Made by a program: the position numbers and the translations under genes. Positions 1 to 36,722 of a stretch of DNA of 36,722 bases are shown in pieces; position 1 is the first letter of the stretch, and each line of letters starts with the position of its first letter. This DNA comes from a virus. Where the stretch lies: positions 1-36,722 of IMG/VR virus record IMGVR_UViG_3300006929_000044. One strand, 5' to 3'. Below the pieces are notes generated by a model. The model searched no databases and had not been told where the DNA came from. It saw nothing but the letters and a program-made list of their open reading frames with translations.

Positions 1-91
1 CATTGCACACACCATTGCACACACCATTGCACACACCATTGCACACACCATTGCACACACCATTGCACACACCATTGCACACACCATTGCA
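1..91. repeat. 12-bp tandem array, left end
   Basis: Seven perfect copies of CATTGCACACAC run from position 1 to 84 and are followed by a partial CATTGCA. The same 91 bases form the right end of the window, so joining the ends gives one array flanked by unique sequence. All six reading frames are open through the unit, so it has no coding signal of its own. It lies in the divergent control region, upstream of both terS and the early genes. An origin iteron array, a terminase recognition site or a physical terminal repeat would all fit. The true copy number may be larger if an assembler collapsed it. Confidence 0.95.
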
Positions 92-122
92 GACAATAAT
101 GCACCTATCGACACAGGCAATA

Positions 123-2343: not shown

Positions 2344-2450
2344 CACTATAGAGAACACTATAGAGAACACTATAGAGAGCACTATAGGGATCACTATAGA
2401 GAGCACTATAAAGAGTTCTATAATATCACTATAGAGAACACTATAGAGAG
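2344..2450 (+). repeat. CACTATAGAGAR 12-bp array (T7/SP6-promoter-core-like)
   Basis: Six units at 2344-2415 and two at 2427-2450 follow the pattern CACTATAGAGAA or CACTATAGAGAG, separated by an 11-base degenerate unit. One copy reads CACTATAGGGAT and one CACTATAAAGAG. CACTATAG is the conserved core around the start site of T7- and SP6-type RNA polymerase promoters, and CTATAG is itself a palindrome. There is no phage RNA polymerase gene in the window. The array lies between the early zinc-protein operon and the next small membrane protein. It could be degenerate promoters, an operator array or an origin. Confidence 0.9.
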
Positions 2451-11697: not shown

Positions 11698-11722
11698 TAA
11701 CTTTTAAAGAAAGTTTTTGAAC

Positions 11723-12289
11723 ATGTACGGACAAGTTTGGTATTCGGGCTCTACAGTTCCTGATCTTGACAAAGATTTTCAACGTGCTGTTATATCCCTG
11801 TGTGATAATCTAGAGGAAGAAAGAGGCGGTATAGGCGAGGGAAAGGGTAAGTACGATAAAAACATACGCTCCAACTCTGTCTATGGCATAGGCAATTCTG
11901 ATTTTAAAACCCTGGTGTTTGAATGGACTAAGAAAGCTAATCAGGAAGCCGACTGGAACTTCGACATATCAGATATACAGGACTTACAGCTTAGCAAGTA
12001 TAGAGAGGGGGATAAGTATAGCTGGCACTTGGATTTACAACATACTAATCCCATGCGTAAGCTAACCTACAACGTGGTTTTAAACAATGACTTTGAAGGG
12101 GGAGAGTTTCAGTTTAGTTGGGGTTCACCCTCCGCCCCGTATAAGAAGCGGATAAAGCCAGAGCCACAGCTTAACATACCAGGTCGCATGGTAGTGTTCC
12201 CCTCTTACTACTACCATAGAATCACCCCTGTAACTTCCGGTGTTCGATATAGCTTAACCGGGTGGGTCACGGGTGATCCTTTCAAGTGA
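11723..12289 (+). CDS. 2OG-Fe(II) dioxygenase (prolyl-4-hydroxylase-like)
   Basis: A 188-residue 2-oxoglutarate- and iron-dependent oxygenase. Iron ligands: H102 and D104 in WHLD, and H165 in YYYHRITPV. R175 in GVRYSLTGW should bind the 2OG carboxylate. These fit the PKHD/P4H subfamily that hydroxylates proteins, and other members act on nucleobases. ATG 11723 is preferred over an in-frame TTG at 11717. It follows ribonucleotide reductase by 25 bases and is the last large gene of the rightward block. The substrate cannot be read from sequence; phage or host protein, or modified DNA, are possibilities. Confidence 0.85.
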   Translation: MYGQVWYSGSTVPDLDKDFQRAVISLCDNLEEERGGIGEGKGKYDKNIRSNSVYGIGNSDFKTLVFEWTKKANQEADWNFDISDIQDLQLSKYREGDKYSWHLDLQHTNPMRKLTYNVVLNNDFEGGEFQFSWGSPSAPYKKRIKPEPQLNIPGRMVVFPSYYYHRITPVTSGVRYSLTGWVTGDPFK

Positions 12290-12393: not shown

Positions 12394-12699
12394 CTACCAC
12401 CCCATAGCCATCCTTGTCTCTATGGGTACTTTGTCCATTGTAAAGGGAGGGTCAAAGGTAGTTACTACTTCGCAGTGCATTGCGTTTGTATACTTCATCC
12501 CGGCAGAATATATGTCCTCTATAATTGAATCTGCAAAGGGGCAAAACGCGCTGGTCAGGGTATGTGTGATTTTTACCTCTAGCTCTTTATGGTCTATCTC
12601 TATGTTGTAAATCAATCCCAGGTCATATATGTTGATTGATATTTCAGGATCGAATACCCTTTTTAAGTTTCCCACAACTATATCTATATCAATTTTCAT
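12394..12699 (-). CDS. DUF59/MIP18 (SufT/PaaD-like) Fe-S maturation protein
   Basis: A 101-residue protein with the full DUF59 (MIP18) pattern: VFDPEI (15-20), DLGLIY (26-31), LTSAFCP with C53 (48-54), DPPFTMD (83-89) and a closing ETRMAMGW (94-101). Members such as SufT, PaaD and eukaryotic MIP18 help insert Fe-S clusters into client proteins, with the conserved Cys involved. It is the only leftward gene inside the rightward block and points the same way as the late operon, beyond that operon's last gene. It could be expressed late by read-through or from its own promoter near the tRNA. A GGTGA site lies close to its ATG. A plausible client is the phage Cas4-like nuclease (inference). Confidence 0.82.
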   Translation of the reverse strand: MKIDIDIVVGNLKRVFDPEISINIYDLGLIYNIEIDHKELEVKITHTLTSAFCPFADSIIEDIYSAGMKYTNAMHCEVVTTFDPPFTMDKVPIETRMAMGW

Positions 12700-12710
12700 T
12701 GTTCACCAAA

Positions 12711-12787
12711 GCTCTCGTAGCTCAACAGGATAGAGCAATAGACTTCTAATCTATAGGTTGTAGGTTCAAATCCTACCGAGAGCGCCA
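12711..12787 (+). tRNA. tRNA-Arg (anticodon UCU)
   Basis: A full cloverleaf can be drawn. The acceptor stem GCTCTCG pairs with CGAGAGC, with discriminator G and an encoded CCA (12785-12787). The anticodon stem ATAGA/TCTAT encloses loop CTTCTAA, giving anticodon TCT, which reads AGA. The T-arm contains GGTTCAAATCC. The D-arm region GCTCAACAGGATAGAGC is normal. AGA and AGG codons are frequent in the phage genes, so it probably supports late translation. No integrase is present, so an attachment-site role is unlikely. Confidence 0.95.
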
Positions 12788-14017: not shown

Positions 14018-14353
14018 TTATTTTCCTGGATGGCTGCCGTTGTGCATGTGCGAGAGTTTATCCACTTCCTTACGCACAGCTGCTAGCTCTGCTATTATAC
14101 TAGCGGTTTCTCTAGCTTTTGATTCTCTCTCCTTGGGAGCTAACATATCAGATATTACCCGTAGCCTTTGCGTATGGTTTTGGATAGAAACTTCTTGAGA
14201 ATCAGTTGTCTTATCTTGTTGACGTAGCCTGGACTCTATATCCGATAACTGCTCTATAACTGACTGCAACTTTGTCTTTACAATTACAAAGGCGGTTACT
14301 ACACTGACCAACATACCTGCCAAGGTAAGTATCATTCTGGCGTCTAGTTCCAT
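14018..14353 (-). CDS. Membrane-anchored coiled-coil protein (spanin-like candidate)
   Basis: A 111-residue protein with one N-terminal membrane helix (about residues 7-25, ILTLAGMLVSVVTAFVIV), then a long helical, heptad-like region (28-95) and a polar end with HMHNGSHPGK. N-in topology with a periplasmic coiled coil is the layout of inner-membrane spanins (Rz), and the gene lies beside holin-like and lytic-enzyme-like genes. No lipoprotein partner gene (o-spanin with a lipobox) was found nested or next to it, so spanin is only a candidate. Generic phage membrane proteins with the same layout exist. Confidence 0.5.
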   Translation of the reverse strand: MELDARMILTLAGMLVSVVTAFVIVKTKLQSVIEQLSDIESRLRQQDKTTDSQEVSIQNHTQRLRVISDMLAPKERESKARETASIIAELAAVRKEVDKLSHMHNGSHPGK

Positions 14354-14362
14354 AGGGGAAAT

Positions 14363-14512
14363 CTACCAAGAAGTAGGTAAGGGGTAAGGTTGGCTACAGT
14401 TACAGCTACTGCACTGGCAATTGTCGCACTTACAGGGAGAGTCGGAGTTGTTACAGTGGCACTGCTTAGCCTCGCACGAGCAGTCCATGCACTGGTTATT
14501 AGACTGTTCCAT
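14363..14512 (-). CDS. Metallothionein-like Cys-rich peptide
   Basis: A 49-residue peptide with 11 cysteines (C8, 11, 13, 18, 20, 27, 29, 32, 34, 37, 39), nearly all as CxC or CxxC, plus H19. This density and spacing is that of metallothioneins, which bind Zn, Cd or Cu in clusters. The frame extends to 14578, but AAGGG five to six bases before ATG 14512 marks the start; the extra residues would be basic and unrelated. Its first 14 bases overlap the end of the holin-like gene. It lies inside the late operon's lysis-like end. I cannot match it to a named subfamily. A small zinc-finger protein is less likely, because there is no finger spacing. Confidence 0.65.
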   Translation of the reverse strand: MEQSNNQCMDCSCEAKQCHCNNSDSPCKCDNCQCSSCNCSQPYPLPTSW

Positions 14513-14672
14513 CTTTGCCCTTCTTTTTACTTTTAATTTCCAAGATTGTTTGATATATTCTGATAGACATCCATACAACTGTTAACAAGCTGGCCAATGC
14601 CGGTATCCACTCCATAACAGTTCCCAGAGCAACTGCCCCGGCAGCTATGTCCACTGGTGTTTTACTATCCAT
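14499..14672 (-). CDS. Small holin-like membrane protein
   Basis: A 57-residue protein with a short acidic/polar N-terminus, two hydrophobic stretches (about 8-22 and 25-43, with WIPALASLLTVVWMSIRIY) and a strongly basic tail (KSKKKGKDG). Two short membrane helices followed by a charged tail is the class II holin layout. ATG 14672 is preferred to an in-frame ATG four codons upstream, though ribosome binding signals are weak. The larger gene upstream is a lytic-enzyme candidate, so the pair could form a holin-endolysin cassette. A second, different holin-like gene lies next to terL. Confidence 0.6.
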   Translation of the reverse strand: MDSKTPVDIAAGAVALGTVMEWIPALASLLTVVWMSIRIYQTILEIKSKKKGKDGTV

Positions 14673-14695
14673 GCTGCTTACCAACCCTTTAAAAA

Positions 14696-15814
14696 CTATA
14701 GACCACCGCCGATTAAGCCCAAGCCGGGTCGTGGATGTTGTGAAAGTGCCTTGTAAGTATCGCTAATAGGTTCTAGTTGTTTCAATGCTTCTCTCACCAC
14801 TGCCGTATCAGTTCGTTTTTTAACAGGTATTTTATTCAAAAGTTTTCGCGTTTTATTTATCTTTTCCGTAGCATCGCTTTGATATTTTTTTAAATAGTTT
14901 AAATATTCTGGATCGTTTTTAACAGCCTTTTTATACTTAGCCCTGTCAATCACCACCCATTTGAACTTACCTGGCCCCTGCTTTTTATACCGTAACCCCA
15001 TATTCTTCAACGATGCTGTTACATGGGTATTTTCACCCGGACCTCCAATCATTTGCTCATCACCAAAGGCGGAGCTAACGCTTCCCCATTCCCATTCAGG
15101 TTTACCAGTGGAATCAAGAACTACCTTACCATTTCTAATCTTCTTCACCCACTTTGGTAGCACTTTTGTATATATCATTTTATTCGCTTCACCGCCTGTT
15201 TCTACTTCTCTGACTAGCTTGTGAAGCTCTTCCGGTGTAGTTGGAGCAACGCCTTTATTCTTACTTAATACGTCTTTCCAATATTCATCTTTCTGTTTGT
15301 TTGTTCCGCCGTGCCATGCCTTTGCTGTTTTTTCCAAGTTGCCGCCTCTGGTTTTTAATTCACGTTCCCAAGCTTCTTTGAACAGTTTAGGGTAGTGTAT
15401 TTTATGTTGTTCCAAGGGTATAAAACCTGCTCCTCCTAGACCCATTCCTGGTTTAACAGGTTCTAACCTTTCAAACATATTTTTTATATCGCGAAGGCCG
15501 AGGACTTCTATTAATCCTCCGAGTCCTTCAGATTCTTCAACCGGCTTGAGTAGACCTTCAGTCGCTAGCCTCTCCTGCTCTCTCCTGTGCGCTATCTCCC
15601 TGTGTTCACTTTGTAAACCAGGTTGTTTAAGCAGTGGACTTGGTTCAGGAGGTCTTGGATACTCCATCTGTCTAAGCGACATGGGCCGCTCAGGAGGTCT
15701 TGGATACTCCATCTGTCTAAGCGGTACAAGTCGTTTAGGTAGTCCTGGTACAGGTTGATTGTTTAGTAAACCCATGCTACTCAATCCCACAATTACGCTT
15801 AAAACTGCTAACAC
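14696..15814 (-). CDS. Candidate lytic transglycosylase / virion lysozyme-like protein
   Basis: A 372-residue protein starting at GTG 15814 with GGGGAAG about nine bases upstream. The N-terminus (1-17) is weakly hydrophobic. Residues 28-57 hold two copies of LRQMEYPRPPE encoded by a direct DNA repeat. The central part has two elements reminiscent of lysozyme-like transglycosylases: NLEKTAKAWHGG (159-170, like the AYNGG motif) and VETGGEANK (204-212) followed by GSVSSAFGDEQMIGG (244-258), where E205 would be the catalytic acid. The order of these elements is unusual. A role in peptidoglycan cleavage, during entry or lysis, is inferred from motif resemblance and the neighbouring holin-like gene. 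Confidence 0.45.
   Translation of the reverse strand: MLAVLSVIVGLSSMGLLNNQPVPGLPKRLVPLRQMEYPRPPERPMSLRQMEYPRPPEPSPLLKQPGLQSEHREIAHRREQERLATEGLLKPVEESEGLGGLIEVLGLRDIKNMFERLEPVKPGMGLGGAGFIPLEQHKIHYPKLFKEAWERELKTRGGNLEKTAKAWHGGTNKQKDEYWKDVLSKNKGVAPTTPEELHKLVREVETGGEANKMIYTKVLPKWVKKIRNGKVVLDSTGKPEWEWGSVSSAFGDEQMIGGPGENTHVTASLKNMGLRYKKQGPGKFKWVVIDRAKYKKAVKNDPEYLNYLKKYQSDATEKINKTRKLLNKIPVKKRTDTAVVREALKQLEPISDTYKALSQHPRPGLGLIGGGL
15645..15723 (-). repeat. 34-bp direct repeat, 45-bp period, inside the lytic-enzyme candidate
   Basis: Bases 15645-15678 and 15690-15723 are identical. The 45-base period keeps the frame and duplicates LRQMEYPRPPE plus four linker residues. Perfect identity indicates a recent duplication or ongoing slippage in a Pro-rich linker. 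Confidence 0.9.
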
Positions 15815-36631: not shown

Positions 36632-36722
36632 CATTGCACACACCATTGCACACACCATTGCACACACCATTGCACACACCATTGCACACACCATTGCACA
36701 CACCATTGCACACACCATTGCA
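36632..36722. repeat. 12-bp tandem array, right end (identical to left end)
   Basis: Seven copies of CATTGCACACAC plus CATTGCA, identical to positions 1-91. The identity stops exactly at the array borders: the preceding bases here end in GAACG and the following bases at the left begin GACAAT. The window therefore represents either a circular or permuted genome with one array, or a linear genome whose terminal repeat is the array itself. Confidence 0.95.

Follow-up and report, generated by a model that had tools for sequence, protein, structure and literature searches.

A conserved, metallothionein-like cysteine-rich gene carried as an accessory by uncultured marine phages

Introduction

Can a reading frame of 49 codons, of which 11 encode cysteine, be a gene of a marine phage, and if so, what might its product do? 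The frame lies in the 36,722-nucleotide stretch of IMG/VR virus record IMGVR_UViG_3300006929_000044 that was analysed here at its full length and is referred to as the window. A sequence-only reading had described it as encoding a metallothionein-like peptide with CxC and CxxC motifs and a good ribosome site, located beside holin-like genes in the late/lysis region, and had suggested as possible roles zinc or copper buffering in virion assembly, protection from metal stress or a redox burst, and disturbance of host metalloenzymes ahead of lysis. Metallothioneins are proteins of small size and high Cys content that have at least one metal-binding domain, and His ligands are common in the bacterial representatives (PMC10612145); known members serve in zinc and copper management and in protection against oxidants (PMC10612145, PMC11237414).

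Results

A Cys-rich gene in the late operon

The 49-residue frame is present on the minus strand, with its ATG at 14512, its stop at 14363-14365, and the translation MEQSNNQCMDCSCEAKQCHCNNSDSPCKCDNCQCSSCNCSQPYPLPTSW. The sequence upstream reads AAAAAGAAGGGCAAAG-ATG and bears out the ribosome site, with the Shine-Dalgarno motif GAAGGG placed 5 nt before the ATG. The gene and its parts are as follows.

14363..14512, minus strand: Cys-rich metallothionein-like gene (49 aa, 11 Cys, 1 His, pI 4.4, 5.5 kDa)
14518..14523, minus strand: Shine-Dalgarno sequence GAAGGG of the Cys-rich gene
14453..14491, minus strand: N-terminal five-Cys lobe, residues 8-20, CMDCSCEAKQCHC (C-x2-C-x-C-x4-C-H-C), with its five Cys and His19 unchanged across 17 family members
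14429..14452, minus strand: inter-lobe linker, residues 21-28, NNSDSPCK, holding the 11th Cys, which is peculiar to the window member
14396..14428, minus strand: C-terminal five-Cys lobe, residues 29-39, CDNCQCSSCNC (C-x2-C-x-C-x2-C-x-C), its five Cys invariant in all members

Cysteine makes up 22% of the peptide, which has one Tyr and one Trp as its aromatic residues and a single Leu, and in which no signal peptide, hydrophobic segment or hydrophobic core is visible from the sequence. With the terminal tandem repeats masked, its 11 Cys per 35 residues are the densest run in the window; no run of 11 arose in 200 second-order Markov sequences of equal length, where the maxima were 5-8 in 199 and 10 in one. 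The nine-Cys spacing pattern of the family described below likewise occurs once in the window and in none of 100 dinucleotide shuffles.

The window carries its structural and terminase genes entirely on the minus strand, from 36.5 kb to about 13 kb, and its replication genes, including a DNA polymerase and a ribonucleotide reductase, on the plus strand; the Cys-rich gene occupies a late position on the same strand as the structural genes. The window terminase has at most about 55-57% identity to cultured phages (Vibrio phages and Pelagibacter phage Baldr) and up to 97% identity to IMG/VR contigs. A single near-perfect 12-bp tandem repeat, CATTGCACACAC, makes up both ends of the window (1-95 and 36632-36722); the record may therefore represent a complete genome whose break falls within one repeat array adjacent to the terminase genes.

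Several further features of the genome were observed. A tandem array of seven CACTATAGRGA copies with mostly 12-bp spacing (2344-2449, plus strand; 0.02 expected by chance) resembles a T7-class promoter core, and no gene for a single-subunit RNA polymerase was recognised in the list of open reading frames. A 2OG-Fe(II) oxygenase (11717-12289, plus strand; PHROG 61, E 5e-34) directly follows the ribonucleotide reductase and has the same place in the relatives that were read. An iron-sulfur cluster assembly protein (12394-12699, minus strand; PF01883, E 1e-10) is adjoined by a tRNA-Arg(TCT) gene (12711-12787, plus strand); HSP20-like genes are found at the comparable place in relatives, and the regions fetched from four relatives contained no such tRNA.

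A lysis-like neighbourhood

The Cys-rich gene is flanked by the following genes, in an order that its upstream neighbour shares with the relative G001 introduced below.

14499..14684, minus strand: holin-like gene with one transmembrane (TM) segment, 61 aa (PHROG 920 holin, weak match: E 0.007 in the window, 0.02 in G001)
14018..14353, minus strand: TM and coiled-coil gene, holin/spanin-like, 111 aa (PHROG 1296 holin, E 4e-4), conserved in five relatives
14696..15814, minus strand: 372-aa gene of unrecognised family at the lysin position of the cassette, matching the position of lysozyme or SLT genes in relatives

Packing is tight: the 3' end of the 61-aa gene overlaps the start of the Cys-rich gene by 14 nt, which suggests that the two may be translationally coupled, and the TM and coiled-coil gene starts 9 nt past its stop. 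The assignment to a late/lysis region has indirect support: lysin genes occupy the equivalent position in relatives, but the 372-aa gene of the window itself has no significant lysin match in Pfam or PHROGs. In relatives this position is held by a GH24 lysozyme (Pfam, 2.5e-16), a Phage_lysozyme2 (2.4e-19) or an SLT transglycosylase (Pfam 6e-4, just below the gathering score; PHROG transglycosylase 1e-6). Different lysin folds interchange at one position of the cassette (SLT, L212:4440-5243; Phage_lysozyme2, L213:3498-4232; GH24 lysozyme, L214:8302-9111).

A family with invariant cysteines

Relatives were recovered through the terminase: the best 80 IMG/VR relatives, mostly metagenomic fragments, were collected with the window terminase, and the longer ones (n=23) were searched with the peptide. 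Three of these 23 (G001, G002 and G006) contain a homologue, found by sequence rather than by Cys pattern. The G001 homologue, MGSDNFCVDCHCKDRECHCNGDCKNCKCTNCKCKEMYKR, is 48% identical to the window peptide (E 5e-7), and those of G002 and G006, for example MQNNIPETEDACITCVCQPQECHCPQPCPHCDCGDCHCKQMYRRNSGWGKSTVSME, are 36% identical to it. In G001, as in the window, the start of the Cys-rich gene lies within the end of a holin-like gene of the 56-61 aa type; its counterparts in G002 and G006 overlap the end of another gene, of 147 aa, whose product has three hydrophobic stretches by eye and, as its sole significant PHROG match, a family of unknown function, and which we label holin-like because of its size, context and appearance. 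Between its Cys-rich and coiled-coil genes, G001 also has a gene for a zinc-ribbon-like product of 57 aa that contains two CxxC pairs (L211:2881-3054, minus strand).

As searching with Cys-spacing patterns guarantees Cys conservation, we seeded an unbiased scan of IMG/VR on the 147-aa holin-like gene of G006, with no Cys criterion. A family member lies directly behind a holin-like gene of this type at 10 of 80 loci, and other genes lie there at the remaining 70; this ratio describes the best 80 loci, including the already known G006 and G002 contigs, and is not a population frequency. At those 10 loci the Cys-rich gene starts 7 nt before or 6 nt after the end of the holin-like gene, and all ten Cys are kept. 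The site directly downstream of the 147-aa gene (L252-L331) is a hotspot of gene turnover that holds many different short genes. A further scan of IMG/VR by Cys spacing yielded 14 additional members on contigs outside the relatives of the window.

Across 17 members, ten Cys, His19 and Tyr43 are invariant, the invariance of the Cys being partly imposed by the search pattern for the members that lie near terminase genes. The sequence-only reading had proposed a search for relatives with conserved Cys spacing, and both were found, several of the members having been recovered without any Cys criterion. Members are 39-76 aa long with ten Cys and share the signature C-x2-C-x-C-x(3,4)-C-H-C, a linker of 3-13 residues, and C-x2-C-x-C-x2-C-x-C(-K-x-M-Y); judged from these sequences, the family shows an architecture of two five-Cys lobes joined by a tolerant linker. 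At 33-45% identity the window member diverges most, and no other member has its 11th Cys.

No Cys is replaced in any pair of members, and most pairs show flips between TGC and TGT; in the comparison of the window with G001, the 29 non-Cys codons have about 35 nonsynonymous changes, and the ten Cys columns have no replacement and four TGC/TGT flips. Outside the Cys columns pN/pS is 0.09-0.72, indicating moderate constraint. A profile built from the family recovers every locus known to hold the gene (E 1e-18 to 1e-29) and has no match in the eight other records to which it was applied.

That the frame is a spurious ORF, or the antisense shadow of another gene or repeat, is very improbable even though Cys-dense ORFs recovered from public contigs by pattern searches are mostly such shadows, antisense to repetitive DNA: the protein is conserved across divergent phages with synonymous flips of its Cys codons, it has its own Shine-Dalgarno sequence and tight same-strand packing, and it is cleanly inserted or absent. 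The homologues refute this reading, and we regard the frame as almost certainly a real gene.

An accessory gene in two phage groups

The Cys-rich gene is accessory: among close relatives, some have it and others lack it cleanly. In L253 and L254 the stop of the holin-like gene runs straight into a gene starting ATGTTTGGATATAACCC, and G006 holds the Cys-rich gene exactly between the two. Absence or breakage of the frame in close relatives had been named as an outcome that would speak against the gene; in some close relatives it is missing rather than broken, a pattern that fits an accessory gene.

The contigs of the 14 additional members represent a second group of phages, whose terminase is distantly similar to those of HMO-2011-type phages of Roseobacter and Pelagibacter. 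Here the gene has a longer N-terminus and is placed upstream of the terminase genes, in surroundings where no lysis gene was recognised. Given the placement of these members, lysis genes are no fixed companions of the family, and a link to lysis itself is weakened.

Searches for known families and cellular sources

A tblastn search of cultured phages with three family members found no homologue, direct searches of IMG/VR with short peptides returned nothing, and a PDB sequence search gave no match to the peptide. Pfam and NCBIfam profiles, including those of any curated metallothionein or zinc-finger family, did not match the family. For PF02069, the family of SmtA, BmtA and PmtA, no member matched at E values up to 10, against 4.5e-21 for SmtA, the positive control. 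A match to PHROG 27696 (E 0.05) is uninformative, as the same search was also positive in 5 of 14 control genomes.

Searches for a cellular source with conserved peptide patterns gave no confirmed relative. The exact family spacing, a pattern outside which differing loops fall, had one match in 84,980 bacterial and archaeal species genomes, and this locus (L240) is an artefact, antisense to an RNase E-like gene rich in Ala and Pro. In 398 genomes of one phylum, a profile search gave marginal matches in three genomes (E 0.002-0.004), about the level of chance, and no Cys-rich ORF with the family spacing was found in that set. A looser eight-Cys DNA pattern returned at least 120 stretches, all of them antisense or repetitive noise as far as they were read. 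Most of the noise in such pattern searches disappeared when codons in the spacers had to start with a base other than T; L220, L230, L231, L243 and L244 passed this filter and are noise nevertheless.

The open-access literature yielded no paper on a phage or viral metallothionein, and the word metallothionein is absent from the main text of a survey of HMO-2011-type genomes (PMC9038755). This agrees with the earlier statement that phage metallothioneins are scarcely described. We provisionally regard the family as undescribed; so far it has been found only in uncultured marine phages.

Discussion

A probable metallothionein-like product

The peptide has the general hallmarks of metallothioneins, namely small size, very high Cys content, conserved CxC/CxxC repeats, few aromatic residues and no hydrophobic core. 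Together with the strict conservation of Cys in a family recovered partly without a Cys criterion, this supports the earlier description, and we consider a metallothionein-like chemistry probable. AlphaFold2 gave no confident fold for the peptide (mean pLDDT 52, pTM 0.27). A metal-free metallothionein is expected to have no confident predicted fold, but any short peptide that has few homologues tends to score low as well, and the prediction is therefore a weak sign of a metal-free metallothionein.

On balance we favour the interpretation that the gene encodes a phage-specific metallothionein-like protein acting as a transient late buffer of metals and oxidants, a reading in which metal binding, expression and the buffering itself are what we infer. 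In this scenario the gene would be translated late, coupled to the lysis genes, to give a short acidic cytosolic peptide whose two five-Cys lobes would wrap Zn(II) or Cu(I) in thiolate clusters, assisted by the invariant His. The peptide would then buffer metals and oxidants transiently while host metalloproteins fail late in infection, and the gene would move between marine phages as optional cargo. Late buffering of this kind appears to be the most economical role.

One may postulate instead a small structural zinc protein of the zinc-knuckle or adaptor kind, whose binding partner would be DNA, RNA or a host protein and whose Cys would serve folding only. The invariant His and the conserved C-K-x-M-Y tail do suggest some specific surface, and a zinc-ribbon-like gene adjoins the Cys-rich gene in G001; however, 10-11 Cys in about 32 residues leave no room for a hydrophobic core, the inter-lobe linker is variable, and neither a confident fold nor a match to a zinc-finger family was obtained. 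We consider this explanation unlikely.

About as unlikely is a partner in lysis timing, a cytosolic Cys-rich peptide coupled to the holin-like gene that would bind or regulate the holin, or chelate its ions, and so set the time of lysis. The start of the gene does overlap or follow a holin-like stop in two unrelated contexts, the 61-aa gene (window, G001) and the 146/147-aa gene (G002, G006 and others). Yet 70 of the best 80 cassettes of this type do without the Cys-rich gene, the gene accompanies several unrelated lysin types, and members of the second group sit upstream of terminase genes with no recognised lysis gene nearby. We place this explanation below late buffering since members of the family are also found at a distance from lysis genes. 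Nor does the peptide have the character of a holin or antiholin: it has no hydrophobic segment, it is missing from those 70 cassettes, and in other phages its relatives adjoin the terminase genes.

More doubtful still is a role in host takeover, in which the peptide would deprive host enzymes of Zn or Cu and thereby shut down host metabolism. High thiol content could compete for metals, and an accessory distribution would suit a host-specific weapon, but a distal place in the structural/lysis operon is late for takeover.

Returning to the late metal and oxidant buffer, a broader proposal is that the peptides form a metallothionein family specific to viruses, for which no homologue was detected in cells, and that the gene is exchanged as optional late cargo by at least two lineages of tailed marine phages, adjoining a holin-like gene in one and lying near the terminase in the other, and would manage the metals or oxidants of a collapsing host before lysis; we hold this wider statement to be about as likely as not. 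If the peptides do bind metal, they would constitute a metallothionein family peculiar to phages, and would point to metal or redox control as a task that phages take on at the end of infection in a metal-poor ocean. The gene is tiny, its signature is simple, and its accessory site allows near relatives that have it to be set against others that lack it; the question is thereby open to testing with a synthetic peptide and paired phage genomes. Such genes stay hidden, falling below the size limits of annotation and perhaps being masked as low complexity in similarity searches.

Comparison with known systems

Not every Cys-rich phage gene belongs to this family. On the T4-like contig L245, two neighbouring genes rich in Cys, of 55 and 75 aa, lie just upstream of a DNA primase (L245:70-468, plus strand), and the first of them has a window-like spacing, CNNCNCIQEQCKCFEKYDACNCKDCDC. 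Unlike family members, this contig does not match the family profile; the surrounding genome is AT-rich, with primase, ThyX-like and RNR-like genes close by, and the Cys-rich peptide is probably convergent.

The bacterial metallothioneins SmtA, BmtA and PmtA (PF02069) resemble the phage peptide in being small, Cys-rich and cytosolic, with CxC and CxxC motifs and His among the likely ligands. They differ in that the bacterial members have a GATA-type zinc-finger fold (PMC10612145), whereas the phage peptide consists of two short five-Cys lobes, lacks the residues for such a fold and has no sequence match to them. Two-domain eukaryotic metallothioneins, with their alpha and beta clusters, are alike in having two linker-joined, CxC-rich Cys clusters, but these hold 9 and 11 Cys per cluster against five per phage lobe, again with no sequence match.

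Among phages, the point of comparison is the HMO-2011 type of marine phage, with Roseobacter phage CRP-2 and Pelagibacter phage HTVC033P as relatives. The feature tables of these two name no metallothionein gene near the terminase, and uncultured phages with a terminase of this kind carry the same Cys-rich gene as the window.
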